The position numbers were made by a program, and so were the translations under genes. From positions 1 through 64,000 of the forward strand of contig JAROBA010000022.1 in the NCBI GenBank assembly GCA_029432815.1: DNA of 64,000 bases, read 5' to 3'. The notes beneath the pieces were generated by a model, which was not told the origin of the DNA, made no database searches, and was given only the letters and a program-made list of their open reading frames with translations. Below are positions 3,908-63,820 of the stretch, in pieces (the first letter of the stretch is position 1; the number at the start of each line of letters is the position of its first letter). Source of the stretch: Pontiellaceae bacterium B1224 (lineage in GTDB: Bacteria; Verrucomicrobiota; Kiritimatiellia; Kiritimatiellales; Pontiellaceae).

Positions 3908-5287
3908 CTACCACTTGATAACGTTCATCGAGCCGTTGGAAGCCGCCCTGGCTTCGCTGGTTTTGACCCATCGTTCGGCGAAACGGGGCCCCCAGCTATC
4001 GGAGATCGCGATCTCATCGGTTTGTTTATTGTAGCCGATGATCAGGCAGATGTGCCCGCCGGCGTTGCTGTCTTCGCTTTGTCCGGAATTGTTTTTGATA
4101 CGTTCTTCTTTCCCGTTTCGCCGTGCGGTGTTGTTGCTGGCGTGTATCTGGAAAGCGGGTGTGCTGATCAGACGCCACATGATCGGAAGTCCCATGTCGA
4201 TATATTCCGAGATTCCTTCGGGATTGAGCGATTCGCGAACCTCTTCGAGTTCCCGGCCGTTGGCGGATATCAATGATTTGGTGGCTTTCAGCATTTTAGA
4301 CGAGGAGGTGCCGCCGCCAATGCCGGTATTGCCGGCGAGGGCCAGCAGATACATATCGGCCGGAATATCCATATAGCGCAGATAGCGTTCCCACGTGGCC
4401 GGGGAGCAGTAGCCTTTCGGTCCCTGATTGACCATTGGAATGTTATTGATCACCACGTCGCCGTTGTCGCGCCGTTCAACGCAGGAGGCCATCCGTGCTT
4501 TCAGTTCTCCTTCTGTAATACGATCCATCCGCCCGCCGTCATCCGCCCGTTCGGTCGGCATAATACGCAATGCGGCATATTTGCCCTCCTGAAGGGAAAG
4601 CATAATCGCATGCCCGTTCCAGTCCCAGCGCCAGACCTTTTCGCGCATATCGCCTCTGCCGAGCGTATCGCGCTTGGGGTTTCCAAGAATTGGAAGCAAG
4701 ACGTTGTGAACATTCATTCCGCTGTCTTCAATCTTGCGCTCCATTGCCTTGCGGTCATCGGGATGATTCATCGTATCGGAGTTCGGGATATCGCCCGCGT
4801 TCAGGAAAACAAAGGAAATGCTGCCGACCTGTTCATCTCCGCCATAAAGCACGGTGGTGTAGACCGGCTCGTTGAGCACCTTTTCTTTGCCGAGTGGGTA
4901 GGCGCGGTGGTTTTCCATGAAATCGGTGCGGGATTCTTTTTTCAGTTTCAGGCGTTTCGCTGTTTCAGAAGGCGAGTCGTCCCACAGGTTGTCGTCCTGC
5001 CAGATTTCAAGGCCGAAAAGAGCGTTGAGTTCATTCCACGGAACAGCATGGAGCTTGCCGCGCCCCTTGCGGGAGAGCAGGTAGTTCAGATGCTTGACAT
5101 CTTTAGCAGCAAATGTACTGAACGGAACGGTAACCGTTTTTCCCAGGCTGGTCCTGAGGACGACCGTTCGGTCGGGATTCACCATCACCACTTCGGCTTC
5201 AATCTCGCGACCATCGGGCGTTTTCCAGATTCTTGCCTGTACAGTCACGGCAAGCAGTATGATGCAGAGGGATGGCAGAATTTTCAT
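3908..5287 (-). CDS. Secreted SHD1-domain protein with C39-like cysteine peptidase domain
   Basis: 459-aa predicted exported protein. A signal peptide (MKILPSLCIILLAVTVQA) is followed directly by an SHD1-like domain (ARIWKTPDGREIEAEV ... VTVPFSTF), a module common in PVC bacteria. The C-terminal half resembles a papain-fold C39 peptidase: Cys near residue 292 in QGPKGYCSPATW, His near 410 in GGHICLIIGYN, and Asp/Ser near 428 in ISDSWG. I chose the start at 5287 because it gives the signal peptide. The upstream in-frame extension overlaps the divergent lipoprotein gene. The substrate is unknown, and the protein may be a transglutaminase-like or inactive relative. A dispersed palindrome lies inside it at 4681-4695. 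Confidence 0.78.
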   Translation of the reverse strand: MKILPSLCIILLAVTVQARIWKTPDGREIEAEVVMVNPDRTVVLRTSLGKTVTVPFSTFAAKDVKHLNYLLSRKGRGKLHAVPWNELNALFGLEIWQDDNLWDDSPSETAKRLKLKKESRTDFMENHRAYPLGKEKVLNEPVYTTVLYGGDEQVGSISFVFLNAGDIPNSDTMNHPDDRKAMERKIEDSGMNVHNVLLPILGNPKRDTLGRGDMREKVWRWDWNGHAIMLSLQEGKYAALRIMPTERADDGGRMDRITEGELKARMASCVERRDNGDVVINNIPMVNQGPKGYCSPATWERYLRYMDIPADMYLLALAGNTGIGGGTSSSKMLKATKSLISANGRELEEVRESLNPEGISEYIDMGLPIMWRLISTPAFQIHASNNTARRNGKEERIKNNSGQSEDSNAGGHICLIIGYNKQTDEIAISDSWGPRFAERWVKTSEARAASNGSMNVIKW

Positions 5288-5411
5288 GTTCCACAAGATA
5301 GGGGTACGAAGAAATTTTGTGGAGCAAAAAACGTTTTCCAGGGGCAGGAACCGATGGTTTGCCCAAGGAATGGTTTGCCGGGGCAGGGTGGTTTCAGTAG
5401 TTTCCGGCGCT

Positions 5412-7202
5412 ATGCGTGGTGGATTAATATACTTATTGGTGGGAACCGCTGTGCTTTCCGGTTGTTCAAGCATCCCGGAGCGGGAGCTTGAAAATGCATT
5501 CAGGTATCTGCGGCTGAAGCGGAATGAAATTCATGAAATTAAACCGATTCCGTCGGAGTATCAGGAGCTGGCTTCCAAAGCCTGGAAAAACAGGGAGCAG
5601 GGTGGAACCGCAGAATATGTGAGTATTCTGGAGCTGGGTGACGATGCGCTGCTGGCCCGGATTCATTTAATTCGGGCGGCTGAAGAGTCCATTGATATAC
5701 AGACCTATATTTGGAAAGACGATCCCTGCAGTCGGTTTGTTTTTGACGAGCTGGTGAAGGCTGCCGAGCGCGGGGTTTTGGTTCGGATTCTGTGCGATGC
5801 CATGAATATGCCCGGCGATCCGTATCAAATGGCACGCATGGCTCAGGCGCACCGGAATCTGGAGATTGCCGTCTATAAACCGCTTGCGGATGTTTCTGAG
5901 GTCGGGAAAATCGGTTTATGGAAAGGGCTGCTTTTCAAAACCAAACGCATGAACCGTCGTATGCATAATAAACTGATGCTGGTGGATGGGCGCATTGGAA
6001 TTGCCGGCGGGCGCAACTATGAAGATCGGTATTATGATCGGAATATTGATTTTCTTTTCCGCGACCGTGATGTGCTTGTCGCTGGCCCGGCGGTCATCGA
6101 TATGGTCGAATCGTTCGATCGCTTCTGGCAGGATCAGGAGGCGGTTTTCATCACGCAGCTCGAAGATGTTCAGGTGGCATTTAATCAGCTGAACGGTGGA
6201 TATAAACCATTTCTCAATCCGGAAAATAAATGGATGTTTGCTGAAATTGATGAGCAGGCGAATGCCCGTTCACTTTCCAATGTTCGGAAAAGTCTGCAGG
6301 TTTACGAAGCGGACTCGGTTCAGTTTATATATGACACCCCCGCAAAATTTTCGGGCGACCAAGAGGGGAATCAGTTTGATGAATGGTTTGAACATTTGAT
6401 TGAAGAGAGTCAGGAACGGCTCGTTTATCAGACGCCCTATCTCATCTACAGCCGAGATGTTCGCCGGGAACTGAAAAGGAAGCGCAAAAAATATCCAAAC
6501 TACAGGGTCATCGCATCCAGTAACGGCCTCGCCTCGGCCGATCACGTGCATGTATACGCGCTCTCCTTTAAGCACCGTAAAGAACTCTATAAAAAAACCG
6601 GGATCGATATCTATGAATCCAAACCGTTCCCCGGCGATCAGGCGGAGTATGTATATAACCTTTCCGGGCTGGTGGATCAGGCAATCCGGAATGCCGGAAT
6701 TACAAATCGGGCGGATATTGCAGAGATTGACCGGGCTGGACCGACGCTTTGTATCCATGCAAAATCATTTGTGATCGATGGAAAGGTGGCCCTGATTGGG
6801 TCCCATAATTTTGATCCGCGCTCGGCTAAGTTGAATACTGAATGCGGGGTCTTTATTCAGGATGAGGAGGTTGCGGCCGAACTCGAGCGCCTGATTCTGA
6901 ATGCCTGCGAACCGCAGAATGCCTGGACCGTCAGTAAAGGGCCGAAAACCCCGGGCATATCACACTTCAGCGGCGTTGTGGGCGGAATTTCGACCGCCCT
7001 GCCGGTGTTCGATATCTGGCCCTACCGCTATACCACGAACTACGAACTGAAAGATGGGTACGAACCGCTGGAGCCCCGAAACCTGAATTTTCAGCAAAAC
7101 TATGTTGATGTCGGCTATTTCCCTGAAGTGCCCGATTCGTCTACAGTCATTCAAGCGCGATTAATGAAAGGTTTCCTGGGTTGGGCCCGACCCTTCATGT
7201 AG
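5412..7202 (+). CDS. Phospholipase D-like lipoprotein (two HKD motifs)
   Basis: About 596 aa. The start at 5412 gives a lipoprotein signal peptide ending in LSGC, which anchors the protein to a membrane on the periplasmic side. An in-frame ATG at 5370 is the alternative, and no strong Shine-Dalgarno decides between them. Both catalytic motifs of the PLD superfamily are intact: HNKLMLVDG (about residue 184) followed by GGRNYEDRY, and HAKSFVIDG (about 448) followed by GSHNFDPRS. The best match is cardiolipin-synthase/YmdC-like phosphatidyltransferases, so a role in phospholipid synthesis or remodelling is likely. It is divergent from the C39-like gene, with a 124-bp gap that must hold both promoters. 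It is followed 18 bp later by the sensor gene. Confidence 0.88.
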   Translation: MRGGLIYLLVGTAVLSGCSSIPERELENAFRYLRLKRNEIHEIKPIPSEYQELASKAWKNREQGGTAEYVSILELGDDALLARIHLIRAAEESIDIQTYIWKDDPCSRFVFDELVKAAERGVLVRILCDAMNMPGDPYQMARMAQAHRNLEIAVYKPLADVSEVGKIGLWKGLLFKTKRMNRRMHNKLMLVDGRIGIAGGRNYEDRYYDRNIDFLFRDRDVLVAGPAVIDMVESFDRFWQDQEAVFITQLEDVQVAFNQLNGGYKPFLNPENKWMFAEIDEQANARSLSNVRKSLQVYEADSVQFIYDTPAKFSGDQEGNQFDEWFEHLIEESQERLVYQTPYLIYSRDVRRELKRKRKKYPNYRVIASSNGLASADHVHVYALSFKHRKELYKKTGIDIYESKPFPGDQAEYVYNLSGLVDQAIRNAGITNRADIAEIDRAGPTLCIHAKSFVIDGKVALIGSHNFDPRSAKLNTECGVFIQDEEVAAELERLILNACEPQNAWTVSKGPKTPGISHFSGVVGGISTALPVFDIWPYRYTTNYELKDGYEPLEPRNLNFQQNYVDVGYFPEVPDSSTVIQARLMKGFLGWARPFM

Positions 7203-7220: not shown

Positions 7221-8786
7221 ATGCCGAAGAAAACATGGACCTCCCGCAGAATTGCACGGGATATTATCATCTTACTGGTTGTGCTGTCCACGGCGGTGAT
7301 TGCTCCCGTAGCCTATTTGGCATCACAGGCGCGGCAGGATATATCCGAACAGTTCATCCATAATGCGACCGGTCAGGCGGTCGGTCAGTTTCTCGCCATG
7401 AGCGGATCCATGGAGGCCACACTGGGGCTGGTTCGCGACTGGGGCTCAACCGAAGCGCTTTCCACAGCTAAAACCGAGGTGATCACCCGCATGCTTTTTC
7501 CAATCTTTGGAAGGGAAAAACTGCTGGACGGTATTTCGATTGCCGATATTGAGGGCAACAGCTTTCACATCTTCCACACCGAAGAGGGCTATCGCTCAAG
7601 TCGCGTCAAAGATTCGGGTAAGGGCCGGATTTCGGAAGTTACTTTCTGGGATGAAGACTTGCAGCCCGCTGAACAATACTCCACCAATACAGTGTATGAT
7701 CCACGCAACCGCCCCTGGTTTGCTCCGGCGTTGGCCAAAGATGAAATAGTCTGGACTGACCCCTATAAATTTTTCACCACCGGCGATATCGGGATAACCG
7801 CATCCATTTCCTATTTACGGAAGAAGGACGATATGCAGGTGGTTATCGCCTTCGATGTATTGGTGGATGATCTATTTAAGGAAATGCATCTTCTCGCCCC
7901 CAGCGACAACAGCCTGATCTATATTTTCCGTAGAGATGCCAGTCTCTACGTACCGAAGTCCGAAAATATACAGGCGGCATTTGTTCCCATCGGGGATACC
8001 GGAAGCGATCTCATTCGCAAGGTACATTCCAACTGGTTTGGCGATCAACAGGACAGCGGCCGAGTCATTTCAGTCATGCATGAGGGGCAGCTCTGGTGGT
8101 GCGGGTTCCGGCCTCTGGATCCCGACCGCAAAACAACCTGGATTGCAGTCATGGTGCCGGAACGCGATATTCTCGGCCATGCCGGGCAGCGTTCAAAACG
8201 TCTCTGGTTCATTGGATTCGCTTCCATCCTCATTGCCACCGGCCTCGCGGTTTGGATGGTTCGCCGCTATGGGCGCCCCAATGATGCCACTGCCACGTTT
8301 GACCGCGAAGATCCGGAAGGCAGCGTAGAAAAAATCATCGCCGCCGGTGAAAGCCGCTATGTCGAATTTAAGTCCACCATGCGCATGAATTTGCACACCC
8401 AAAAGCCCGGTAAAGAAATTGAAATGGCCTGGATGAAAGGCGTCGCCGGTTTCCTCAATACGGACGGTGGCATCCTGCTGATCGGCGTCACCGACGACGG
8501 CGAAATCACGGGCCTCGAACGCGACGTCTTTGAAAACGAAGACAAATGCCGCCTTCATTTCAAAAATCTTATCTCCAAACACATCGGCGCCGATCTTTCC
8601 AAATACATTCGTTTCATCATTGTTCCAATGGTTGGAAAAACCATCGGCGTGGTTCGGTGCGACCGGGCGTCCGAACCCGTCTTCGTAAAAGACGGAAACA
8701 AAGAACACTTCTACATTCGCAACGGTCCGTCCTCGGATGAGCTCCCTGTCAGCCAGGCCCTCAACTACATTAAACACCGGGAATAA
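7221..8786 (+). CDS. Membrane sensor: extracytoplasmic Cache-like domain fused to cytoplasmic AlbA_2 domain
   Basis: 521 aa. One membrane helix lies at about residues 12-34. An extracytoplasmic region of about 290 aa follows with PDC/Cache-like features (DPRNRPWFAPALAKDEIVWT and TASISYLR), then a second helix at about 328-350. The cytoplasmic part from about residue 370 is an AlbA_2 (Schlafen AlbA-like) domain: ESRYVEFKST, GFLNTDGGILLIGVTDDGEI and FYIRNGPSS. Cache domains bind small ligands and normally drive kinases, cyclases or chemoreceptors. AlbA_2 is usually linked to helix-turn-helix or ATPase-like regulators, so this pairing is unusual. The start has a ggag site eight bases upstream. 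The gene lies 18 bp after the PLD lipoprotein and is likely co-transcribed. The output mechanism is unknown. Confidence 0.8.
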   Translation: MPKKTWTSRRIARDIIILLVVLSTAVIAPVAYLASQARQDISEQFIHNATGQAVGQFLAMSGSMEATLGLVRDWGSTEALSTAKTEVITRMLFPIFGREKLLDGISIADIEGNSFHIFHTEEGYRSSRVKDSGKGRISEVTFWDEDLQPAEQYSTNTVYDPRNRPWFAPALAKDEIVWTDPYKFFTTGDIGITASISYLRKKDDMQVVIAFDVLVDDLFKEMHLLAPSDNSLIYIFRRDASLYVPKSENIQAAFVPIGDTGSDLIRKVHSNWFGDQQDSGRVISVMHEGQLWWCGFRPLDPDRKTTWIAVMVPERDILGHAGQRSKRLWFIGFASILIATGLAVWMVRRYGRPNDATATFDREDPEGSVEKIIAAGESRYVEFKSTMRMNLHTQKPGKEIEMAWMKGVAGFLNTDGGILLIGVTDDGEITGLERDVFENEDKCRLHFKNLISKHIGADLSKYIRFIIVPMVGKTIGVVRCDRASEPVFVKDGNKEHFYIRNGPSSDELPVSQALNYIKHRE

Positions 8787-8860: not shown

Positions 8861-10321
8861 ATGAAACTCTTCGATGCCCATAACCACATACAGGATAAAC
8901 GGCTTTTTCCAGACCTTGGAAACGTGATGCAGCGGGCCCGGAAAACCGGAGTCGTGAAGATGGGTGTGAAAGGCTGTAGCGAAGAAGACTGGTCGACTGT
9001 GATTCAGATAGCGCAGATGTACGAAGGCATTTATCCCTCCTTCGGTCTCCATCCCTGGTTCATCGTGAAGCGATCTCCGAGTTGGCTCCAAACCTTGGAA
9101 GATCTGCTAATTCAATTCCCGAATGCGGCGGTGGGGGAAATTGGAATCGATCACGCCATTGAAGAGCGCGATGACGCCGATCAGGAAAAAGTATTCTTCC
9201 AACAGCTGGAACTCGCCCGAAAGCTGAACCGCCCCGTTTCGATCCACTGCCGACGGGCGTGGGGACGCTTGATCGAATTACTCGACCAGTTTGGGGAACT
9301 GCCGCGGGGCATGCTGATTCACTGTTTTGGTGGGTCGGCGGAAATTGCCACCGAGCTGGTAAAGCGCGGCGGCTATATTTCCTTCTCGGGATCGATCACC
9401 CGCCCAAATGCCCGCAAAGCCGGCCCGGCCATCCGTGCCGTTCCGGACGATCGAATTCTCATCGAAACCGATGCACCCGATATTCTGCCAACCACCGCCG
9501 ATGGCCCGCTCAATGAACCGGCGAATGTGAAATTGGTTTTGGAAAAGGCCGCTGAGTTTAAAGGGTGCTCACAAGAAGAACTAGCAGACCTGACATTTCG
9601 GAATGCAGAACGCTTCTTCCATCATGGGCGAGACGCCCATGCCACAAACCGTGGAACGGGCGTCCCGCCCGTTATTCCCCAGTTGCCAAGCGACTACACA
9701 CTAGGAAACTGGAGCGAAGAATTTCATATCCGCTACGGAGCGTATCTTCCGCACTGGACGCGCAATGCCGGGGTGTATGCCGTCACATTCCGCCTGGCTG
9801 ATTCGCTTCCCCCGAATGTTTTGGCATCCTGGGTGATTGAGCGGGACAACATTTTGGAAGCTGCGAAAACTGCCGGGCGTGCGCTGTCGGACCATGAGGC
9901 GAAACGGTTGCAGGACCTCCACGCGGAGCGTGTAGAGAGTTTTCTCGATTCAGGAGCCGGAGCCTGCTGGCTTCAGCATGAACCGATCGCTCAAATCGTG
10001 AAAGATGCTCTGTTCCATTTCGATGGCGACCGCTATGCCATTCAAGCGTGGTGTATCATGCCGAACCATGTACATGTCGTTTTCCAACCATTGGAAGGGC
10101 AGAAACTTCCGGATATTCTGCATTCCTGGAAATCATTTTCGGCAAAAAAAGCGAACCGTCTGCTGGAGCGATTCGGCGACTTCTGGCAACCCGAGTACTA
10201 CGACCACCTCATTCGGGATGAAGAGGATTTCAGGCATGCAGTAACGTATGTGCTGGAGAATCCGGAAAAGGCAGGGTTAAAGAATTGGCCTTGGGTTGGG
10301 GTGAGAAAGTACGCCCATTAA
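8861..10321 (+). CDS. TatD-family hydrolase fused in frame to a REP-associated transposase (RAYT)
   Basis: 486 aa made of two unrelated proteins. Residues 1 to about 253 are a TatD metal-dependent deoxyribonuclease: HNH at 7-9, SFGLHPW, GEIGID, SIHCRRA, IHCFGG and IETDAP. Residues 254-270 (GRDAHATNRGTGVPPV) are the translation of a REP element at 9623-9673. From about 271 on is a Y1 HUH transposase of the RAYT family: GAYLPHW, VTFRLADSLPP, HUH motif MPNHVHVV with His403 and His405, and Tyr463 in TYVLENP. There is no stop between the parts. A TatD protein normally ends where the REP begins, so the element seems to have inserted over the TatD stop. A separate start for the RAYT part is not evident. 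The product may be a bifunctional fusion. Confidence 0.88.
   Translation: MKLFDAHNHIQDKRLFPDLGNVMQRARKTGVVKMGVKGCSEEDWSTVIQIAQMYEGIYPSFGLHPWFIVKRSPSWLQTLEDLLIQFPNAAVGEIGIDHAIEERDDADQEKVFFQQLELARKLNRPVSIHCRRAWGRLIELLDQFGELPRGMLIHCFGGSAEIATELVKRGGYISFSGSITRPNARKAGPAIRAVPDDRILIETDAPDILPTTADGPLNEPANVKLVLEKAAEFKGCSQEELADLTFRNAERFFHHGRDAHATNRGTGVPPVIPQLPSDYTLGNWSEEFHIRYGAYLPHWTRNAGVYAVTFRLADSLPPNVLASWVIERDNILEAAKTAGRALSDHEAKRLQDLHAERVESFLDSGAGACWLQHEPIAQIVKDALFHFDGDRYAIQAWCIMPNHVHVVFQPLEGQKLPDILHSWKSFSAKKANRLLERFGDFWQPEYYDHLIRDEEDFRHAVTYVLENPEKAGLKNWPWVGVRKYAH
9623..9673 (+). repeat. REP element, copy 1 (inside the TatD-RAYT reading frame)
   Basis: 51-bp element with two small hairpins, gggcg-aga-cgccc and aacgggcg-tcc-cgcccgtt, joined by a spacer. 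It matches copy 2 at 10345-10395 in 50 of 51 positions and has the same orientation. It is translated as GRDAHATNRGTGVPPV inside the fused gene. Confidence 0.93.
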
Positions 10322-11270: not shown

Positions 11271-12725
11271 CTATTTAAAAAAATTCACGATTTTGGAGAC
11301 GAGGCCGCTGTCCTCATCTTCGGTATCTAAATCAGTTTCTTCTTCCGGCTCTTCTTCCGGCATGCTCTCGAAACGCTTCAATGCTTTTTTGGCTACGGCC
11401 GGGTTCCAATCCTTGGAAAGTTCTTCCATCGCCATGCGGGTGAGAATCGGGTTGTCGCATAATGCGAGCCTGACGGATGGGGCATTATCGCGCATCAGTT
11501 TGCGGACTTGCGCGTGCGTCAGCTGCGCGGCTCCAGCTGCAAACGAGTGAAGCGATGAACGTTTATGCGCTAACAGTTGTTCGAGCAGCTCCGGTTTAGT
11601 GCCTTCGAAAATGATGCCCCGCAGTGCCAGATGTCCAATAAGGTTCAGATCTTCATTCTGGTTCACCAGAATATCGAGCAACTCGTCGGTCAGATCGTCA
11701 CGATAGGCCATGCTCAGGCGAACCAAATCCGACTCATGGTGGCAGAGTTCGACTTTTCCAGCCTCTGGAAGTTTCGGGTTTCCGGCCAGTGCTTCGCAGG
11801 CGGCTGCATCGTTCGAGGCAGCAATACGCAAGGCGACCTCTTCGTCCAGTCCGGGATTCCCGGCCAACGCCACACGCACTTCTTCGACGGCATCGGCAGC
11901 GAGTACATGCTGAATTTCAGCCGGGAGGTCTTCGCGTTTGGCGGTTTCCAACCGTTGGAACTCGTCGTCCGATTCCGCGCGGGCCAGCAGATCGGCCTCG
12001 GTCGGTTCATATAAATCTTTAATCGCTTCCTGTACCACGCCATCCGGGCTCAGGCGCAAGGCCTGGACAATTTCCGGCTTGGGCTTATTTCGCGAAAGCA
12101 TCAGGCGCTGGGCTTCAACATCGTCCGATCCGGCCCAGCTCAGCAGGACTTCCGGCGTCACTTTGCCATAGCCGTAGAGGTTGGCCCGAACCACGGCGCT
12201 TGAATCCGCCGAAAGCGTGTGAATGATCTCGTCCGAAAGTTTGGCGGTGCCGGCCAGCGCGGTGCGAACGCCCGGTTCGGGATCGAGTGCCAATGCGGTG
12301 CGATAGGAATCGTTAATCGACCCGTTGCCCGCCAAGGCGATGCGAACGAATAGATTGGAATCGTTCATCAGCTCGGCGGTGATTTTCGGGTTTAGCAGTT
12401 TATTCGCGGCCAGTGCAGCGCGGACCGGTGCGCCGCCCTCGCGGGCCATCCGAATCAGAAGCAAATGCGTGCAACGCGGGTTGGTTGCGGCGGCCGCCTG
12501 AATTTCAGGATCGGTACACGCTTCCGCCAAATCTTCCAGCACCTGACTGGGGACGGTGGGATAGAGCGCGAGGAAAAGCAGCACATCGCGCTCGGGGTGC
12601 TCGCTGTAGAGATCAATCAGAACGCGGCTCGGCAACAGGTTGTGGCGGTATTGCTTCACAACCTTGCGCGGACCATCCTTGTGAATGGCTTCGAGCAGTT
12701 CTTCTAATTTAATTTCGGCAGGCAT
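11271..12725 (-). CDS. Leucine-rich-repeat-variant (LRV/HEAT-like) protein, 484 aa
   Basis: Alpha-helical solenoid built from about a dozen repeats of the LRV type, for example VRIALAGNGSINDSYRTALALDPEP, VRTALAGTAKLSDEIIHTL and VRVALAGNPGLDEEVALRI. The usual xVRxALAxNPxLxxE pattern is plain. The C-terminus is acidic (EEEPEEETDLDTEDEDS) and ends in a short hydrophobic helix (LVSKIVNFFK). Such solenoids are scaffolds for protein binding, and no enzyme motif is visible. The start abuts an inverted repeat, without a clear Shine-Dalgarno. Three palindromes of the dispersed family lie inside the gene (11404, 11756, 11946). It sits directly downstream of the FtsK-like gene. Confidence 0.82.
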   Translation of the reverse strand: MPAEIKLEELLEAIHKDGPRKVVKQYRHNLLPSRVLIDLYSEHPERDVLLFLALYPTVPSQVLEDLAEACTDPEIQAAAATNPRCTHLLLIRMAREGGAPVRAALAANKLLNPKITAELMNDSNLFVRIALAGNGSINDSYRTALALDPEPGVRTALAGTAKLSDEIIHTLSADSSAVVRANLYGYGKVTPEVLLSWAGSDDVEAQRLMLSRNKPKPEIVQALRLSPDGVVQEAIKDLYEPTEADLLARAESDDEFQRLETAKREDLPAEIQHVLAADAVEEVRVALAGNPGLDEEVALRIAASNDAAACEALAGNPKLPEAGKVELCHHESDLVRLSMAYRDDLTDELLDILVNQNEDLNLIGHLALRGIIFEGTKPELLEQLLAHKRSSLHSFAAGAAQLTHAQVRKLMRDNAPSVRLALCDNPILTRMAMEELSKDWNPAVAKKALKRFESMPEEEPEEETDLDTEDEDSGLVSKIVNFFK

Positions 12726-12825: not shown

Positions 12826-14715
12826 TTAGTTTTCAATAAGGATTTCCCGTGGCGTACTTCCAATCTGTGGGCCGACAATACCCTTGGCTTCCATCTCTTC
12901 AATCAGATTCGCCGCGCGATTGTAGCCGACGCGCAGGCAACGCTGGAGATAGGAGGTGGAGGCGCGTTGGTCGCGCAGGATAATTTCAATGGCCTGATCG
13001 AGCAGGGGATCGGCGTCCTCGGCATCTTTCAGGGCATAGCTTTCGTCGCCTTCGCAGGGCGAAAGGTCGGTGATGGATGTTTTAAAGTTCTGTTCGCGTT
13101 GCTCGGCGCAATGTTCCACGACCCGTTGAATTTCGGCATCGTTCACCCACGGGCCCTGCACGCGCTGGAGAATTCCAATGCCCGGAGGACTGAACAGCAT
13201 ATCGCCCTGACCGCGCAGCGCTTCCGCGCCGCGCCCGTCGAGAATGGTGCGTGAATCGATCTGCGAAGAAACCTTGAAGGCCACGCGGGTCGGGAAGTTG
13301 GCCTTGATCATCCCGGTGATGACATTCACGCTCGGTCGCTGGGTGGCGATAATGGTGTGGATGCCGACGGCGCGCGAAAGCTGTGCAATACGGGCGAGGG
13401 CAGTTTCCACATCGGCACCGGTGGTGAGCATAATGTCGGCGAGCTCGTCGATGATGAGGACGAGGAACGGCATACGCTTCATGCCCAGCTCATCCATCTT
13501 TTCGTTGTAGCCGGCAATATTGCGCGCACCGACCTGCGCCATCGTTTTATAGCGTTGCTCCATTTCGCGGACGGCCCATTGCAGGGCCGGAACCACGAGC
13601 TTGGCTTCGGTAATCACCGGGCGGACGAGGTGGGGTAGCTTTTCATAGGCCCCGAATTCGACGCGTTTCGGGTCGATCAGAATCAGCTCCAGCTCGTCGG
13701 GCGAAAAGTGGTTGGTCAGGCACATCAGAATCGTGTTCATGCAGACGGACTTACCGCTACCGGTGGCGCCGGCAATCAGCATATGCGGCGCGGCGGCGAG
13801 GTCGGTGATGCACAGGCTGCCGCCGAGTTCCATGCCCATCATGAGCGGGATAGCGGCTTTCGTATTTTTCCAATCCTTGGAACGCATTAGCAGGCCGAGG
13901 TTGAGCGGAGCGGAGTTGCCGTTCGGGATTTCGAGGCCGACGTAGGGTTTTCCCGGGATGGGAGCCTGAATACGAATGCTCTCCGCCGCGAGCGCCAACG
14001 CGAGATTGTTGCTGAGTGAGCTGATCGATTCCACGCGAACGCCAAGGCCGGGCTTCAGGCGGAGCTGGGTCACGCGCGGGCCGACGACGGCATCCCAGAC
14101 GGTGGCGTCGACCGCAAAGTTGTCGAGCGTGTCCTGAACCGCCTTTTTCTGACGCTCCAGTTCCTCGGGATCGATGAAGATGAATTCGGTGCTTTCGGGC
14201 TGATCGTAGAGATCGGGACCGGGGCGATTGTAGTCGTCGGTGACGGCAGCAATCTGCTCATGAACCTCATGTTCCGGTTCAGCGATTTCGATGGGCTCGG
14301 GCTCAACGATGGGTTCGGCGGCAATAGGCTCGTTACTGGTCTGATCCAGCTTTTGGCGGATGTCTGCGGCCTGCTTTTTCACGCGTTCAATGGCTTTGGC
14401 CTTGGTGGAAATGAAATGTTCCTGCGCCACTTTGCGTTTTTCCAATGCCTGGAAATGTTCGGCGCGCCAGTTTTCGAGTAGCTGTTCGCGTTGAATGCGC
14501 GCTGTTTCGGCGGCTTCCTCAGCGGGGTCGAAATATTCCTCAACAACTTCTTCCGGCTCGTCTTCAACCCGCTCAAAGCCGGAAGCGGCAAGCAGTCCGT
14601 TGCCGATTTTGGACATAAAGGAGCGCACTGCACGAACGGAAAAAGGGTCTGATCCCTTGGCGTTCAACGCGTTGTGGTTTCTGGTTTTGAGGTCTTCTGA
14701 AGAGGCAGTTGGCAT
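12826..14715 (-). CDS. FtsK/SpoIIIE-family DNA translocase without membrane domain
   Basis: About 629 aa. The C-terminal 450 residues are the FtsK motor: alpha region (VGPRVTQLRLKPGLGVRVESI), Walker A GATGSGKSV at about residue 315, Walker B LVLIIDELADIM, the motif IIATQRPSVNVITGMIKAN, and a gamma winged-helix domain at the end (STSYLQRCLRVGYNRAANLIEEME) that in the family reads KOPS/SRS-like DNA. The N-terminal 200 residues are charged and helical, with no transmembrane segment, unlike classical FtsK with four helices. The ATG at 14715 is preferred over a TTG at 14736 and an internal ATG at 14616. It is probably a soluble chromosome-segregation or DNA-pumping ATPase. A membrane partner might be encoded elsewhere. 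Confidence 0.9.
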   Translation of the reverse strand: MPTASSEDLKTRNHNALNAKGSDPFSVRAVRSFMSKIGNGLLAASGFERVEDEPEEVVEEYFDPAEEAAETARIQREQLLENWRAEHFQALEKRKVAQEHFISTKAKAIERVKKQAADIRQKLDQTSNEPIAAEPIVEPEPIEIAEPEHEVHEQIAAVTDDYNRPGPDLYDQPESTEFIFIDPEELERQKKAVQDTLDNFAVDATVWDAVVGPRVTQLRLKPGLGVRVESISSLSNNLALALAAESIRIQAPIPGKPYVGLEIPNGNSAPLNLGLLMRSKDWKNTKAAIPLMMGMELGGSLCITDLAAAPHMLIAGATGSGKSVCMNTILMCLTNHFSPDELELILIDPKRVEFGAYEKLPHLVRPVITEAKLVVPALQWAVREMEQRYKTMAQVGARNIAGYNEKMDELGMKRMPFLVLIIDELADIMLTTGADVETALARIAQLSRAVGIHTIIATQRPSVNVITGMIKANFPTRVAFKVSSQIDSRTILDGRGAEALRGQGDMLFSPPGIGILQRVQGPWVNDAEIQRVVEHCAEQREQNFKTSITDLSPCEGDESYALKDAEDADPLLDQAIEIILRDQRASTSYLQRCLRVGYNRAANLIEEMEAKGIVGPQIGSTPREILIEN

Positions 14716-16009: not shown

Positions 16010-16198
16010 TTTCTCCCTTCGTTATAATGATTCAGATAAAAAACGATGAAAGTGCTAATATAATACGCAATAGATTTGTCCGCGTATTTCCAGAGGTTGG
16101 AAACGGTGCGTTTGAGGGGTTAATGGAATTGTATCGGGAGTAGAGAACGGGTAAAAAAGCTGATTCTGTTTATTAAGAAACGATTTGGAGCATTTTTC

Positions 16199-17161: not shown

Positions 17162-17271
17162 TGAAGATTTAAGCATTCAGTACGGAGAGTGGCGGGTCTG
17201 CGACAGCTTCTGACGAGGAAGCGAATCGCCCTTTTTCATTCTGAAATCTGCATTCTTAATATAGGACAAAT

Positions 17272-18147: not shown

Positions 18148-18164
18148 ATCGCACGGAGACGAGC

Positions 18165-18899: not shown

Positions 18900-18903
18900 A
18901 ACT

Positions 18904-18953
18904 GGAAATCTGAAACTTGAATTTTTTACACCCATTTCAAGTTTCAGGTTTCC
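18904..18953. repeat. Intergenic inverted repeat between scpB and pheA
   Basis: ctgaaacttgaa (about 18910-18921) and ttcaagtttcag (about 18936-18947) can form a 12-bp stem around attttttacaccca, with further matching sequence outside. Similar words (ggtttccagtttcaag) appear once at 12808, so this is one member of another small repeat family. Confidence 0.65.
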
Positions 18954-18972
18954 CTTTTCAAAAAGGAACATC

Positions 18973-20037: not shown

Positions 20038-20062
20038 CTGATATTTATATTCTGAATACTCG

Positions 20063-20100
20063 AAGATGGTGCGTGTTTTATACATGTGCCATCTTTTTTT
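20063..20100 (+). terminator. Probable intrinsic terminator after pheA
   Basis: aagatgg ... ccatctt forms a seven-bp stem followed by a run of seven or more T. It lies 26 bp after the pheA stop. Confidence 0.65.
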
Positions 20101-20545
20101 AGATATGACATTAAGTCTTGAAACAAAAAACTAGAAGTGGCGTTCTTAAAATAGATATGGAATAGAGTTTAATTAAACCCGTGGTGGGAGTAGACGAATA
20201 GTTTTCGTTGGCACATGGATAGCCGTAAAAATCTGCGTAGAACCAAAAACAAACACTCGATAAAAATCTTTGAATCGCGATGGCGAGCTTGGAGATGGAG
20301 ATTCGGGGGTATGGACTGAGGCTGTTCGGACAATTCTTTCCTTGCCCGAAATAAATGTCGTTTTCTTCCGCAAGGTTCTGCTCCTGCGAGCGTTGGTATG
20401 ACGGACGATTCCGGGACCTTTGGCAATTGCCAATATTTTCCGATCATGCGTCTCTGATCAGGTCTCGAAAGTACACTCTTTCTAGTTTTTCTATTAGCTT
20501 ATAATGAGTGGCTTACGGCTTTTTCGTGCCGGTGTGGCCGGGCGC
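20101..20545. other. 445-bp gap with no supportable gene
   Basis: Two overlapping minus-strand ORFs of 86-92 codons lie here, but neither has a recognised motif, a ribosome site or plausible codon use. The content may be decayed coding DNA or regulatory sequence for the sigma-54 promoter that follows at 20546. I see no hairpin-plus-U terminator and no tRNA or known riboswitch in it. Confidence 0.5.
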
Positions 20546-24033: not shown

Positions 24034-24039
24034 GTTTTG

Positions 24040-56388: not shown

Positions 56389-59300
56389 ATGTTTAAAAAA
56401 GTACTGGTTGCCAACCGTGGTGAAATTGCCTGCCGAATTATTCGGTCCCTAAAGGAAATGGGGATCACTTCGGTCGCTGTTTATTCCGACGCCGATGCCG
56501 ATGCCGAACACGTGGCCATGGCCGATGAAGCCTTCAACATCGGACCGGAATTGGCGAAGGACAGCTATCTGAATACCGCCAGGATTCTGGAAGTGATGCA
56601 GGAAAACGGTGTGGAGGCGGTGCATCCGGGCTATGGGTTCCTCAGTGAAAATGTCGAGTTCAGTCGGGCCTGCGCGGAAATCGGCGTCGAATTTATCGGC
56701 CCCGAAGAAAAACATATTCTCGAATTCGGGCTCAAACACATGGCCCGCGACCTCGCCGAAGCCGCCGGCGTTCCGCTGGTGCCGGGAACCGGCCTGCTCA
56801 ACTGTGAAGATGAAGCCCTCGAGGCCGCGGGTCGTATCGGCTATCCGGTCATGCTCAAGAGCACCGCCGGGGGCGGGGGCATCGGCATGCGCATCTGCAA
56901 CAGTTCCGATGAACTCGAAGCGCACTACGAAACCATCAAGCGCCTCGGCAAAAACTACTTTAAAGACGAAGGCCTCTTCCTCGAAAAATACATCAAAACT
57001 TCGCGTCATATCGAAGTGCAGGTATTCGGTAACGGCAAGGGCGATGTGGTGGTGCTCGGCGAACGCGACTGCTCGGTGCAGCGCCGAAACCAGAAGGTCA
57101 TCGAAGAAACGCCCGCTCCGAATATTTCTCAAGAAACCCGCAGCGCGCTGCATGCCGCAGCCAAGGTGCTGACCGAAAAGGTGGCGTATCGCTCCGCCGG
57201 CACGGTGGAATTTATTTACGATACCGAGACGGAAGACTTCTATTTCCTCGAAGTAAACACCCGGCTGCAGGTGGAGCACGGAATTACCGAAGAAGTGTTC
57301 GGTGTCGATCTCGTGCGCTGGATGGTGGAGCTCGCCGCCGGCGAAGATCCAACCCCTGGAAACTTTGATCTTAAGCCGACCGGCTGCGCGATGGAGTTCC
57401 GAGTCTATGCCGAAGATCCGGGCAAGGAGTATCAGCCGTCGAGCGGTATCATAACCAAAGCGGAATTCCCCGATAATATCCGCTGTGACAAGTGGATCGA
57501 AACCGGAACCGAAGTTTCCGCATTTTATGATCCGTTGCTGGCGAAAGTTATCGTCAAAGGAGTTGATCGTTCCGAAACGATTGCCAAATCGATTGAAGCG
57601 CTGACAGCCACAAAACTTTACGGATTTGAAACCAACATTGAGCTGATGAAACAGGTGCTCGAGAACGACACTTTCCGGGCCGGCGACGTGTTTACCGGAC
57701 TGCTCAATACCTTTGCCTATACCGTGAACACGATTGAAGTGGTGATCCCCGGAACGCAGACCACCGTGCAGGATGTGCCGGGCCGCACCGGATTCTGGGG
57801 CGTCGGCGTTCCGCCGTCGGGACCGATGGATATGCTAAATTTCCGGATGGCCAATCGGCTGGTCGGAAATGTGGAAGAGGCCGCGGCATTGGAAATGACG
57901 ATGTCCGGCGGAAGCTATACATTCAATACCAATTCCACGGTGGCCGTAACCGGTGGCGATCTGACGGTGATGCTCAACGACAAAACGGTTCCGTTGTTTG
58001 AAGCCATTGAAGTGTGTGCCGGCGATACGCTGAGCATCAGCGCATTTTATAAAGGTCAGCGTGCTTATCTCGCTGTACGCGGCGGGCTGGATGTGCCGGA
58101 TTACATGGGCAGTAAATCCACCTTCATCCTCGGTAAGTTCGGCGGACACGCCGGCCGCGCACTCGTTGCCGGCGATGTGCTCCGGATCGGGCACGACGTT
58201 TCCAATGATTGGAACATGAAGCAGCTGCCGGAAGCCGAACGGCCCGAAGTTTCCAACCATTGGAAGATCGGTGTGATGTACGGCCCGCACGGCGCGCCGG
58301 ACTTTTTCACGTCGCAGGATATCGAAACCTTCCTCGAACATCAGTGGGAGGTGCACTTTAACTCATCCCGCACCGGCGTACGACTGATCGGTCCGAAACC
58401 GAAATGGGCGCGCACCGACGGCGGCGAGGCCGGCCTGCATCCGTCCAACATTCACGACAATGCCTATGCCATTGGTGCGGTCGACTTTACCGGAGACATG
58501 CCGGTCATCCTCGGGCCGGACGGCCCGAGCCTCGGCGGCTTCGTCTGCCCGGTCACGGTGGTGAGTTCCGAGCTTTGGAAAGTCGGGCAGCTGAAGCCGG
58601 GTGATACCATTCAGTTTATTCCGATGAAGCTGGAAGACGTTTTGAGCGGTGCGGAACCTGCGGCAGTTGATGTTGCTGAAACACCGGCGATTATTGCTTC
58701 GTGGAACACGGACGATGAATTTGAAAAGGTGGTCTGCCGCCAGGCGGGGGATCAATATCTGCTGCTGGAGTTCGGTCCGCTGCAGCTCGACCTGCGTTTG
58801 CGGTTCAAGGTGCATGCCTGGAATCTGAAGTTTGAAGCATTGAAACTGCCCGGCGTGATTGATCTGACGCCCGGCATCCGTTCGTTCCAGATTCATTTTG
58901 ATCCGACCGTGCTGCCCCGTACCCGGCTGCTGGAGCTGATCGACTCGCTGATCATTGAGCTGGGCGAAAATCCGCCGGAAGAGGTGGAGTCGCGTATCGT
59001 GTATCTGCCGCTCAGCTGGGACGATCCGCAGACGCGGCTGGCGATCGAAAAATATATGTCGGCCGTCCGCAAGGATGCGCCGTGGTGCCCCAGCAACATC
59101 GAATTTATCCGCCGCATCAACGGGCTCGATTCCATTCAGGACGTGCAGGATATTCTGTTTGATGCCAGCTACATTGTGATGGGACTCGGCGACGTCTACC
59201 TCGGCGCCCCGGTGGCCACGCCGGTCGATCCGCGGCATCGGTTGGTGACGACCAAATATAATCCGGCCCGCACATGGACGCCGGAAAATGCGGTCGGGAT

Positions 59301-60039: not shown

Positions 60040-61800
60040 ATGATCAATTTGCAAATTACTTCCCTGCTAAAAGGCTATGCCGCTAGCACATTCACAATCA
60101 ACGATGTCGTCTTCCAATGTTTGGAAATGGCGGAACTGCTGCCGAAGGAAGCGTGGATTCGGAAACTGACCGCGGATGAGGTGGCAGTTTATGTTCAGGC
60201 CTTGGAAGGGGAGTCGCCCGACACGAAGCCGCTCTACGGAATTCCTTTTGTGATTAAGGATAATATTGATTTGGCCGGCATTCCTTCGACTGCCGGTTGT
60301 CCGGACTATGAATATGTTCCGGAGCAATCCGCCCACGTCGTCGCGCAGCTGATTCAGGCCGGGGCGATTCCGCTGGGTAAAACCAATCTAGACCAGTTTG
60401 CCACGGGACTCGTCGGCACGCGCTCGCCCTATGGGGCCTGCCCGAACAGTTTTGATCCCGACTATATTTCCGGCGGTTCGAGCAGCGGCTCGGCGGTGGC
60501 GGTCGCCGGCGGTTGCGCCAGCTTTTCGCTCGGCACGGATACGGCCGGCTCCGGCCGCGTGCCAGCGGCCTTTAATAATCTGATCGGGCTGAAACCGTCC
60601 AAAGGATTGCTGAGCTGCACCGGGGTGGTGCCGGCTTGCAAGAGTCTCGACTGTGTCTCCATCTTTGCGCTTGATGCCGCCGATGCACAGGCCGTTTTCA
60701 ATGTGGCGTCTCATTTCGATGCCGACGATTGCTATGCCCGCAAGCTGGATCAGGTTCCTGTGATTTCCAGTGGTTGGAAATTCGGTGTTCCCAAAATGGA
60801 GCAATTGAAGTTTTTCGGGAACAACGAATATAAAGCCGCATTTAAAGAGAGCGTTGAGATGCTCGAAAAAGCGGGTGGCACACAGGTCGAGATTGATTTT
60901 CAGCCCTTCCTCGATGCGGCCAACCTGCTCTATTCCGGGCCGTGGGTGAACGAACGCTATGCGGCGGTCGGCGACTTTATCGACAAAAATCCTGATGCCG
61001 TGCTCGATACCACCCGCACCATCATTCTGTCCGGACTGCAGATTCCTGCCCCCGAAGTTTTCAATGCCATGTATAAGCTGCAGGCCTTCAAGCGCATTGC
61101 GGATAAAATCATGAACTCGGTTGATATGATCGTAACGCCGACGGCCGGCACCTGCTATACGATCGCCGAAGTCAACGCCGACCCGATACAGCTCAATACC
61201 AACCTGGGCTTCTATACCAACTACATGAATCTGCTCGATTATTGCGCCGTTGCCGTGCCGACGGCGATGACCTCCGCGCTTCCGTTCGGGGTGACTCTGG
61301 TATCGTTTGCCGGGCACGATCTGAAACTGCTGCAGCTGGCCGATCGCCTGCATCAGGTTTCGCGGTTATCGGTGGGGAAAACAAAGGATCGACCGATGCC
61401 GTTTATTCCGGTTCCTGGACGAGGGACCGTCGACCTCGCGGTTTGCGGAGCGCATCTGAACGGTTATCCGCTGCACCATCAGCTGGAAGATCTGAACGCG
61501 GTTTTTGTGGAATCAACAGAAACCGCTCCCGAATACCGGATGTATGCCTTCGAAACCGACGGCGTGGCGAAGCCCGGGCTGATTCGCGGTAAGAAAAAGG
61601 GCGGGGGAATCTATCTGGAAATCTATCGGCTGACCTTTAAAAATTTCGGCAAATTTGTCAGCGCCATTCCCGCCCCGCTCGGTATTGGGAAAGTAAAGCT
61701 CAGGGGCGGTACAGAAGTCTGCGGATTCATTGCCGAGCCGGCGGTTAAGCAAATGGGTGAAGAGATCACCCACCTGAGCGACTGGCGGAAATATTGCTGA
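60040..61800 (+). CDS. atzF: Allophanate hydrolase
   Basis: 586-aa enzyme splitting allophanate to CO2 and ammonia. The amidase-signature domain has the catalytic triad Lys73 (PFVIKDN), Ser147/148 (GGSSSGSAVA) and Ser171 (GTDTAGSGR). The C-terminal 120 residues (VAVCGAHLNGYPLHHQLEDLNAVFV, YRMYAFETDGVAKPGL) are the allophanate-hydrolase-specific domain that removes the carboxyl group. It is the last step and last gene of the operon. Its stop is directly adjacent to the stop of the convergent speB, with no spacer. Two exact palindromes are inside, one read as FQCLEM near the start. Confidence 0.96.
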   Translation: MINLQITSLLKGYAASTFTINDVVFQCLEMAELLPKEAWIRKLTADEVAVYVQALEGESPDTKPLYGIPFVIKDNIDLAGIPSTAGCPDYEYVPEQSAHVVAQLIQAGAIPLGKTNLDQFATGLVGTRSPYGACPNSFDPDYISGGSSSGSAVAVAGGCASFSLGTDTAGSGRVPAAFNNLIGLKPSKGLLSCTGVVPACKSLDCVSIFALDAADAQAVFNVASHFDADDCYARKLDQVPVISSGWKFGVPKMEQLKFFGNNEYKAAFKESVEMLEKAGGTQVEIDFQPFLDAANLLYSGPWVNERYAAVGDFIDKNPDAVLDTTRTIILSGLQIPAPEVFNAMYKLQAFKRIADKIMNSVDMIVTPTAGTCYTIAEVNADPIQLNTNLGFYTNYMNLLDYCAVAVPTAMTSALPFGVTLVSFAGHDLKLLQLADRLHQVSRLSVGKTKDRPMPFIPVPGRGTVDLAVCGAHLNGYPLHHQLEDLNAVFVESTETAPEYRMYAFETDGVAKPGLIRGKKKGGGIYLEIYRLTFKNFGKFVSAIPAPLGIGKVKLRGGTEVCGFIAEPAVKQMGEEITHLSDWRKYC

Positions 61801-62628
61801 TTATTTGCGGGTGATCAGGCCCATCAGATTATAAATCATGCGGGCGCAAAGAAAATCGGGAGCATGTAAGTTCTCGATAGGGGCCAGCTCGACGACGTCG
61901 AATCCAATCACGGTTTTCTGTGCGGTAATCTGTTCCAGACATTGGAACAATTGGAACCAGTTCAGGCCGCCCGGTTCGGGCGTGCCGGTGGCTGGCATGA
62001 TCGAGGGATCGAGTCCGTCGACGTCGATGGTGATGTATACTTTTTCCGGGAAGTCATCCGGCAGCAGGTTATCCGGGATTCCGTTGCGCCCAATCTCATA
62101 GCCATCTAGAAACGGAATATTATTTTCTTTGCGCAGTTCAACTTCCGGAAGCGAAAGCGCGCGAACACCGATCTGAAACAGCGGGAAGTCCATCGCAATC
62201 GCATGATGCAGGGCGCAGGCATGGCTCAGGGCATCGCCTTCATATTCCGCCCGCAGGTCGGCATGCGCATCGAACTGAATGATACCGATATTTTCACCGG
62301 TTTCCTTCATGGCTTTGAGTGCTGCAACGGTAACGGTGTGTTCTCCGCCCAGCATCACCGGAACGTTCCCGGTTTTCAGGACCTCCGAAATTTCGCGCTC
62401 CATGAACTCCAGCGAATATTGCGCCTTGTGCGTGTGGATACCATAGGTGCACGGGCAACTCGCGCCATCGTAGGCTTCCAGCTGATACGACGCATCCAGA
62501 ATGGCCGCCGGCCCTTTCGCTGCGCCGCCGCCATAGGACACCGTCTTTTCATACGGAGCCGGAATAATGTGAAACAGGCAGTCCTCTGCCGGCATATCCG
62601 GGATTTCAGATTCAAGAAACTTTTTCAT
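61801..62628 (-). CDS. speB: Agmatinase / arginase-family ureohydrolase
   Basis: 275-aa Mn-dependent hydrolase, releasing urea from agmatine (or possibly another guanidino compound). Metal-binding motifs are LGGEHTVTVAA, IIQFDAHADLRAEYEG and ITIDVDGLDPSIMPATGTPEPGG. It is next to nspC on the same strand, so agmatine-to-putrescine in a polyamine pathway is the likely job. The urea it frees could feed the operon beside it if that takes urea. A palindrome inside is read as FQCLEQ. Confidence 0.92.
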   Translation of the reverse strand: MKKFLESEIPDMPAEDCLFHIIPAPYEKTVSYGGGAAKGPAAILDASYQLEAYDGASCPCTYGIHTHKAQYSLEFMEREISEVLKTGNVPVMLGGEHTVTVAALKAMKETGENIGIIQFDAHADLRAEYEGDALSHACALHHAIAMDFPLFQIGVRALSLPEVELRKENNIPFLDGYEIGRNGIPDNLLPDDFPEKVYITIDVDGLDPSIMPATGTPEPGGLNWFQLFQCLEQITAQKTVIGFDVVELAPIENLHAPDFLCARMIYNLMGLITRK

Positions 62629-62704: not shown

Positions 62705-62710
62705 TGAAAA

Positions 62711-63820
62711 TTATGCCAGTCGGTGTTTATAGTCCTGATAGTTGAATTCGCGGACGATCTCGATTTTATCGCCGCGCTTGATTCCAATGTCCGGATGCTT
62801 CACCCCGTTAAAGAAGGAGGTCTTTACCATGGAATAGTGCGCCATGTCCTGAAAAACCAGACGGTTGCCGATCTGCAATGGTGCGTCAAAGGAGTAGTCG
62901 CCAATCACATCGCCGGCCAGACAGCTGAGGCCCGCTAATTTATAAGTGTGGTTTTTTTTGTTCGGTAAGTCGCCGCCATCAATCTCCGGACGATAAGGCA
63001 TTTCCAGAACGTCCGGCATGTGGCAGGTGCAGGAGACATCAAGGATGGCAATCGGGCCGTCGTTGTCAATGATGTCGAGTACGCTCGCCACCAGCACGCC
63101 GGCATTCAGCGCAACGGCTTCGCCGGGTTCGAGGATGACCTGCACGTTATATTTGGCCTTGAAATCGTTGATCAGTCGGCAGAGCAGATCGATGTCATAA
63201 TCATCGCGCGTCACATGATGCCCGCCGCCGAAGTTCACCCAGTCCAGCTGCGGCAGAATATCGCTGAACTGTTCTTCGACTGCCTTGAGGGTTGTTGCCA
63301 GATCATCCGAGTTCTGTTCGCAAAGCGTGTGGAAATGCAGGCCCGAGATCCCGGTCAAGTCCTGTCCCTCAAAGTCCTGCTTACGAATTCCCAGTCTGGA
63401 TTTCGGAGCACACGGATCGTAGATCGCATGTTCCGGATCCTGTGTGGAGCATTCGGGATTGATGCGCAGGCCCAGTTTGGTATTCCCCGTTTCCAATGCC
63501 TGGAACTTTTTAAACTGGTTAAACGAATTAAAATCAATTTCGTCGCACAGCGTCAGCAGTTCTTCGAAGTCGGCATCGGAATAGGCCGCCGCAAAGGCAT
63601 GCACCTCCTTGCCGAACTGCTCGCGGCCGAGCCGCGCTTCCCAGGGCGAGCTGGCGCAGACGCCATCGAGATAGTTTCCAATCATTGGAAACATCGGCCA
63701 CAGGGCAAAGCCCTTGAGAGCCAGCAGAATTTTGCAGCCGGTTCGTTCCTTCACCGACGCGAGAATCTCGCAGTTGCGGCGGATCAGTTCTTCATCAACA
63801 ATAAAGGCAGGTGTTTTCAT
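62711..63820 (-). CDS. nspC: Carboxynorspermidine/carboxyspermidine decarboxylase
   Basis: 369-aa PLP enzyme of the alanine-racemase-fold decarboxylases. The start TPAFIVDEELIRRNCEIL with KILLALKGFA carries the PLP Lys. GLRINPECST, GISGLHFHTLCEQ, VNFGGGHHVTRDDYD, EPGEAVALNAG and DVSCTCHMPDVLEMPYRPE are typical. It makes spermidine or norspermidine from the carboxy precursor in the alternative polyamine route. Its start overlaps the stop of the upstream gene by four bases. Confidence 0.95.
   Translation of the reverse strand: MKTPAFIVDEELIRRNCEILASVKERTGCKILLALKGFALWPMFPMIGNYLDGVCASSPWEARLGREQFGKEVHAFAAAYSDADFEELLTLCDEIDFNSFNQFKKFQALETGNTKLGLRINPECSTQDPEHAIYDPCAPKSRLGIRKQDFEGQDLTGISGLHFHTLCEQNSDDLATTLKAVEEQFSDILPQLDWVNFGGGHHVTRDDYDIDLLCRLINDFKAKYNVQVILEPGEAVALNAGVLVASVLDIIDNDGPIAILDVSCTCHMPDVLEMPYRPEIDGGDLPNKKNHTYKLAGLSCLAGDVIGDYSFDAPLQIGNRLVFQDMAHYSMVKTSFFNGVKHPDIGIKRGDKIEIVREFNYQDYKHRLA

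Follow-up and report, generated by a model that had tools for sequence, protein, structure and literature searches.

The motif and its sites in the window

We analysed a stretch of 64,000 nt from Pontiellaceae bacterium B1224, referred to as the window, which carries 35 exact copies of the interrupted palindrome TTCCA-N5-TGGAA between positions 4681 and 63690. The sites are listed below by window coordinates and without strand assignment; all entries rest on exact matches to the motif, those from 16088 to 33703 in addition on alignments with the relatives L005, L006 and L007.

4681 to 4695: palindromic site TTCCAAGAATTGGAA, in a gene
5573 to 5587: palindromic site, in a gene (PLD-like protein)
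7498 to 7512: palindromic site, in a gene
8623 to 8637: palindromic site, in a gene
8907 to 8921: palindromic site, in a gene (TatD/Y1_Tnp)
9197 to 9211: palindromic site, in a gene
10082 to 10096: palindromic site, in a gene
11404 to 11418: palindromic site, in a gene (DUF2336)
11756 to 11770: palindromic site, in a gene
11946 to 11960: palindromic site, in a gene
13868 to 13882: palindromic site, in a gene (FtsK)
14440 to 14454: palindromic site, in a gene (FtsK)
16088 to 16102: palindromic site, in a gene; arms kept and centre changed in L005
23861 to 23875: palindromic site, intergenic; arms retained with altered centre in L007, site not retained in L005
26416 to 26430: palindromic site, in a gene; absent in the aligned relatives, with a site 17 bp further on in L005 and L006
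27694 to 27708: palindromic site, intergenic; retained in L007 and, by gapped alignment, in L005
29553 to 29567: palindromic site, in a gene; arms retained with altered centre in L007, site not retained in L005
31836 to 31850: palindromic site, in a gene (T2SSE); retained in neither L005 nor L007
32308 to 32322: palindromic site, in a gene (T2SSE); arms retained with a different inner base in L005, site not retained in L007
33703 to 33717: palindromic site, intergenic; arms retained in both L005 and L007
34835 to 34849: palindromic site, in a gene
34999 to 35013: palindromic site, in a gene
35135 to 35149: palindromic site, in a gene
42677 to 42691: palindromic site, in a gene
42752 to 42766: palindromic site, intergenic
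46505 to 46519: site with a non-pyrimidine inner base (TTCCAGGGTATGGAA), in a gene
47501 to 47515: palindromic site, in a gene
47658 to 47672: palindromic site, in a gene
58200 to 58214: palindromic site, in a urea carboxylase-like gene encoding biotin carboxylase and carboxyltransferase domains
58251 to 58265: palindromic site, in the same gene as the site at 58200
60112 to 60126: palindromic site, in an allophanate hydrolase-like gene
60765 to 60779: palindromic site, in an allophanate hydrolase-like gene
61933 to 61947: palindromic site, in a gene
63491 to 63505: palindromic site, in a gene
63676 to 63690: palindromic site, in a gene

An earlier note on this stretch had described massive repetition of the motif, which we confirm, with a count of 33 exact copies that was slightly low. 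Dinucleotide shuffles of the window contain on average 0.13 sites and at most 1, and the 35 sites lie far above the 0.8 expected under an order-5 Markov model, a comparison that the note had set in advance as capable of overturning its proposal. Among spacer lengths from 0 to 15, length 5 alone is enriched (35 copies vs 0 or 1). The extended form TTCCARNNNYTGGAA is matched by 34 of the 35 sites, the exception being the single site with a non-pyrimidine inner base. The flanking columns show a further T/A-rich extension of the palindrome.

The motif is a genome-wide signal, as had been claimed: the whole genome contains 2,237 sites in 5,377,058 bases, i.e. one per 2.4 kb, compared to 3 copies of the motif read backwards in the same 5.38 Mb, an over-representation of a palindrome of the kind known for highly iterated palindromes (HIPs). 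We used a sample of 578 kb drawn from the window's own genome, labelled G000, to define the core. TCCA-N5-TGGA occurs 401 times in this sample vs 6-18 times at each of eight other spacers, and both outer bases are also present in 281 of the 401 sites, showing that the tighter core in this genome is TCCA-N5-TGGA plus a strongly favoured outer base. The PflMI-like core CCAN5TGG occurs 546 times vs 109-211 at other spacers and was rejected, having no clear excess beyond TCCAN5TGGA. In sites of G000 with one mismatch the deviations fall on the outer T in 34 of 74 cases and on A5 in 29 of 74; the clustering at the outer base was not seen in the genomes G048, G097 and G057. The three central bases do not vary freely as previously suggested, the middle base being G or C in 33 of 35 window sites and in 264 of the 281 sites of the sample, and positions 7 and 9 of the motif vary by lineage dialect.

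Position of the sites relative to genes and on the chromosome

Genes were called with a simple custom script, which may produce false open reading frames (ORFs) through arrays of sites. In the G000 sample 188 of the 281 sites are inside genes at a coding fraction of 0.81, corresponding to densities of 0.40/kb in genes and 0.83/kb in intergenic regions. The genic sites use all three reading frames (70, 69 and 48 sites) and are evenly distributed over ten bins along the gene length (15 to 21 each). The use of three frames, together with the presence of intergenic sites, excludes codon or codon-pair bias, the latter named in the earlier note as a possible sole cause. GC content as the driver was likewise rejected, its correlation with site number being 0.02. 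Per 5 kb the sites are distributed near Poisson (mean 2.4, variance 3.1).

The intergenic preference differs strongly between genomes, with intergenic/genic density ratios of 2 in G000 and in G037, 3.5 in the leuA set, 14 in G077, 19 in G097, 21 in G048, 79 in G083 and above 200 in G057. Short all-N contigs depress the densities of G000, and slightly those of four other genomes, in the comparison of multiple genomes; the 578-kb sample is free of such contigs. Called genes contain 13 of 31 sites in G089, 15 of 21 in G093, 5 of 12 in G080 and 5 of 6 in G082, numbers which may reflect false ORFs, and the gene caller proved unstable in G083, where 7 of 7 sites of one stretch were genic compared to 1 of 17 when more sequence was used.

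A consistent promoter preference across gap types is absent in G000, G048 and G097. Divergent and convergent gaps of G000 both carry 1.0 sites/kb and codirectional gaps 0.8/kb; convergent and divergent gaps contain 6 sites in 1.5 kb vs 6 in 1.4 kb in G048 and 13 in 3.1 kb vs 13 in 2.4 kb in G097. On the complete chromosome of the relative G032, divided into 20 even stretches, no gradient from origin to terminus is visible by eye, and the site counts are overdispersed (mean 4.6, variance 10.7).

Conservation of the arms and strand symmetry

Exact sites are retained in 16 of 31 ortholog comparisons within the Pontiellaceae at a mean identity of 78% and in 42 of 75 in a second set at 76%, compared to an expected retention of 6-9%, which is our own estimate for ten unconstrained positions at 76-78% identity. 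These counts are over ordered sequence pairs, so that a pair of sites can count twice, and the genomes are non-independent. Permuted half-sites used as a control were retained in 0 of 13 cases. In the Pontiellaceae and the second set, respectively, the identity is 90% and 89% in the arms, 71% and 69% in the flanks and 63% and 73% in the centre. The better preservation of the arms compared to the flanks in relatives shows that selection acts on the DNA. At the window sites 16088, 23861, 29553, 32308 and 33703 the arms are kept and the centre is altered in at least one of two relatives. Some sites are missing in relatives in alignments that are ungapped, showing that sites can arise by substitution.

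The two asymmetric forms of the inner bases are nearly equally frequent on the sense strand, with 35 vs 27 in G000 and 6 vs 12, 3 vs 4 and 3 vs 2 in three other samples, which argues for recognition of double-stranded DNA. In two relatives (L023 and L026), two sites exactly 63 bp apart lie in what is apparently the same gene, both sites being conserved with changed centres. Within the window's genome a stretch of about 290 bp is repeated at 80% identity (L067, 19537-19828; L068, 12441-12730), and sites are present in both copies.

Helical phasing in relatives and arrays in phages

In relatives the motif forms arrays of 2 to 8 copies, and the distances between sites cluster at 21-22, 30-33, 42, 63 and 73-74 bp. 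This helical phasing is a new fact compared to the earlier note. Pairs at 30-32 bp, i.e. three turns, number 6,215 in total and are present in 44 of 44 motif-rich genomes, whereas antiphase pairs at 25-27 bp number 21 and are found in 8 of these genomes. For distances d between neighbours, cos(2 pi d/10.5) averages 0.81 to 0.96 in 11 of 12 samples, G050 (no sites in the stretches taken) and G102 (two sites) being excluded. In 10 of the 11 phased samples the observed cosine exceeds that of all 20,000 jittered sets; in the remaining one, G077 with three pairs, it is reached by 56 of the 20,000. The 15-bp dyads are thus spaced at two or three helical turns, as in Lrp arrays, in relatives and weakly so in the window's genome, which as a whole has 40 in-phase vs 6 out-of-phase pairs. 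We read the weak phasing there as a consequence of most sites standing alone. The spacers between sites are mostly unlike overall in the five genomes compared (G048, G097, G057, G083 and G037). In G048 only 1 of 120 pairs of 16-17 bp spacers is alike at 9 of 12 positions (control 0.3), showing that the phasing in this genome does not result from tandem duplication.

Arrays are also present in phages. In IMG/VR, nine stretches from eight contigs hold pairs at 31-32 bp and one further contig a close pair. A PHROG family search with ten proteins from six phage contigs identified the terminase large subunit in L085, L086, L090 and L091, an integrase additionally in L085, a portal protein additionally in L090 and a head maturation protease in L087; L093 gave weak matches only, and no match was obtained for L088, which comes from the same contig as L090. 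The terminase genes of L085 and L086 are preceded by an array a few hundred bases upstream. No genes were called upstream of these terminase genes in L085 1600-3600 and L086 1400-3200, where exact and degenerate copies of the motif are found.

Distribution in the class and phylum

For the protein encoded by leuA in the window the best match, at 97% identity, is from Pontiellaceae bacterium B12219, followed by matches in Kiritimatiellales and Pontiella. Within the Kiritimatiellia, 60 of 266 genomes, spread over 11 numbered families, have at least 100 copies of the motif, and many other families of the class have counts no higher than the control. Copy numbers within the same genus range from 5 to 2,297, with 20 copies in two genomes that are 94-95% complete. 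The motif-rich genomes G099, G093 and G008 likewise have motif-poor relatives (G101, G092, G003 and G018). Among 203 genomes of other classes of the phylum the narrower R-S-Y form TTCCARNSNYTGGAA occurs at most 9 times, so that this form of the motif is restricted to the class; some genomes of the class, among them G089, G093 and G240, use a TTCCAY-N3-RTGGAA dialect instead (the general pattern occurs 302 times in G089 and 221 times in G093, the R-S-Y form 0 times and once, respectively), which would have escaped the phylum search, this being limited to TTCCARNSNYTGGAA. A distant genome in this search, G316, has 52 copies of the reversed control pattern rather than of the motif, perhaps representing another repeat. 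Five 15-mers and TTCCANNNNNTGGAA do not occur in the full texts searched, and the motif is unreported among the matches listed for titles and abstract openings on the class or phylum combined with palindromes, repeats, uptake or nucleoid.

Two further observations concern Y1_Tnp. A TatD DNase-like protein encoded in the window at 8861-10321 has a match to Y1_Tnp in its C-terminal part, which would be an unusual fusion if real, and the genome G234 has at least 74 Y1_Tnp matches, far above the others.

Discussion

Our data suggest, on balance and with restrained confidence, that TTCCA-N5-TGGAA is the site for a dimeric, sequence-specific DNA-binding protein of the Kiritimatiellia, acting cooperatively on one face of the DNA and probably having a chromosome-wide architectural function. 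A DNA dyad that is under selection, helically phased in relatives, used about equally on both strands and without consistent promoter preference is best explained by cooperative dimeric binding. According to this model, the half-sites TTCCA and TGGAA, with centres 10 bp apart, would be presented about one helix turn apart on one face, neighbouring dimers would make cooperative contacts at site distances of two, three, four or more whole turns, and the protein would act on the whole chromosome, organising the nucleoid, rather than as a local switch. We infer binding, oligomerisation and nucleoid organisation from the DNA, and the architectural role in particular from the number of sites, their spread and the lack of promoter preference. 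Recognition by a dimeric protein, proposed in the earlier note, is well supported by the conservation of the arms, the use of three frames and the phasing in relatives; the analogies drawn there to HIP1 and to DNA uptake are weaker or tentative.

Several observations weigh against this interpretation, beginning with the architectural role, which is deduced rather than observed. Contrary to what had been assumed, the dyad is not perfect, its centre being imperfectly symmetric: positions 7 and 9 are complementary in 58 of 281 sites, compared to an expected 80. In the window's genome the outermost base collects deviations in the manner of HIP1, and the 33 neighbouring pairs of the 578-kb sample are unphased with a mean cosine of -0.08. 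Spacers are alike above control in G097 (45 of 528, control 9.3), G057 (11 of 190, 5.05), G083 (3 of 28, 0.10) and G037 (1 of 21, 0.05), and likeness beyond control in these four of the five genomes compared suggests that some arrays have spread by duplication. The f2 samples tilt to divergent gaps, with 10 sites in 4.6 kb vs 4 in 2.3 kb of convergent gaps, and in a second sampling 8 in 9.1 kb vs 3 in 14.2 kb. Comparisons of Lrp, LysR, Y1_Tnp, ComEC and type I specificity subunits revealed no binder. Within one panel, all 24 motif-rich genomes and 24 of the 32 motif-poor ones encode members of the Lrp/AsnC family, with one or a few members in 48 of 56, and the only conserved Lrp orthologue shows no relation to motif density. 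Its recognition helix, as read from the sequence, is acidic and similar in motif-rich and motif-poor genomes, leaving Lrp as the binder unsupported, though not rejected outright, despite the resemblance of the operators.

The sites might alternatively be operators of a global transcription regulator, whose arrays would control thousands of genes and whose isolated genic sites would be side effects. Phased operator arrays are typical of Lrp-type regulators, and both the higher intergenic density in G000, G048, G097 and G057 and the excess in divergent gaps of the f2 samples would fit such a regulator; nevertheless we regard it as unlikely, given that a consistent promoter preference is missing, that G048 and G097 have about the same density in convergent and divergent gaps and that two-thirds of the sites in the G000 sample are inside genes and evenly spread along them. 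LysR, which recognises T-N11-A sites, was rejected as the binder, being absent in 7 of 23 motif-rich genomes, e.g. in G048 with its 1,808 sites. A HIP1-type iterated palindrome arising from, or maintained through, a DNA methyltransferase together with mismatch repair would account for one site per 2.4 kb, the presence in genes, the rapid gain and loss within a genus, the dialects and the deviations at the outermost base around the core TCCA-N5-TGGA in G000. It would not predict helical phasing, the deviations also fall on A5 and do not cluster at the outer base in G048, G097 and G057, CCAN5TGG lacks a clear excess of its own, and a type I methylase was rejected, its specificity subunit being missing in 5 of 25 motif-rich genomes; we consider this origin rather improbable.

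About as improbable, or slightly more so, is a signal for DNA uptake or self-recognition. The motif is genome-wide, class-specific and found in genes, and ComEC is encoded in 39 of 40 genomes; yet ComEC is equally present in motif-poor genomes and was rejected as not tracking the motif, and known uptake sequences are to our knowledge neither palindromic nor helically phased. Phage contigs with terminase, portal or integrase genes carry arrays as well, which is compatible with uptake and at the same time blurs a mark of self. We consider it very unlikely that the motif is a small mobile or selfish palindrome resembling repetitive extragenic palindromes (REPs) and bacterial interspersed mosaic elements (BIMEs), spread by a REP-associated tyrosine transposase (RAYT). 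Y1_Tnp is found in 25 of 25 motif-rich genomes, the arrays of G057 partly share spacers and several G057 contigs begin or end in arrays. Y1_Tnp also occurs in 17 of 21 motif-poor genomes (42 of 46 altogether) and was rejected as not tracking density, the flanking columns contain neither a GTAG nor a CGTC tag, the centres are variable, sites are found within genes, and relatives lacking a site align without gaps, showing no insertion as a unit. Six-bp arms and a three-base loop could also fold into an RNA hairpin in transcripts, an explanation that we rejected as scarcely credible: the sense strand has no clear bias towards wobble pairs, the forms with G-U and A-C inner pairs being about equal in G000 (35 and 27), the helical pitch of DNA has no meaning for RNA, and G000 sites lie in convergent and divergent gaps alike.

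Building on the dimeric protein as the preferred explanation, we tentatively put forward, with somewhat less than even confidence, a scaffold code of the entire class in which hundreds to thousands of operators with near-invariant arms, running through genes and gaps and helically phased in clusters, would guide the predicted architectural protein as it assembles on one face of the DNA, with lineage dialects of the centre and arrays acquired by phages as parts of the system. For bacterial nucleoid proteins, loose binding or binding by DNA shape is mostly assumed. If the model is true, chromosome folding would be encoded in the sequence by thousands of selected operators inside genes, phased with the helix in relatives, which could be tested in cultured Pontiella, and the motif would offer a second large system besides HIP1 to study the gain and loss of iterated palindromes inside a single genus.

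Compared to known systems, the motif shares the high genome-wide density and taxon restriction of the DNA uptake sequences (DUS) of Neisseria and the uptake signal sequences (USS) of Pasteurellaceae, and differs from both in being palindromic and, in relatives, helically phased. REP/BIME elements are described in PMC3733652 as short palindromes with a terminal GTAG or CGTC tag and a linked RAYT transposase. The present motif is similarly a short palindrome, forming mainly intergenic clusters in some genomes; unlike REP/BIME it lacks a terminal tag and an insertion footprint in alignments, and its arms are conserved inside genes. HIPs, according to PMC4390886, are dense, located in genes, rapidly gained and lost and present in alternate forms, with deviations of HIP1 biased to the outermost base. 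The cyanobacterial HIP1 (GCGATCGC) and the present motif are both genome-wide palindromes of genic and intergenic regions with fast gain and loss and alternate forms, and the outermost base is also the least fixed one in the window's genome; HIP1 is a continuous GC-rich octamer with known methylase sites, in contrast to an interrupted 15-mer forming phased arrays in relatives and without a known methylase. For Lrp-family proteins, palindromic, dimer-bound sites two or three helical turns apart are described in PMC2995911, and a 15-bp consensus of Ss-LrpB, TTGCAAAATTTGCAA, in PMC4046817. The Ss-LrpB box, a 15-bp dyad of the form TTxCAA-N3-TTGxAA bound by dimers in clusters at two or three turns, resembles our motif; Lrp sites are described as degenerate, whereas the Kiritimatiellia genomes have hundreds to thousands of sites with near-invariant arms, which the Lrp orthologue of the class does not track. 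By analogy, HIP1 appears to be the nearest known genomic signal and Lrp-type operator arrays the nearest mode of binding.

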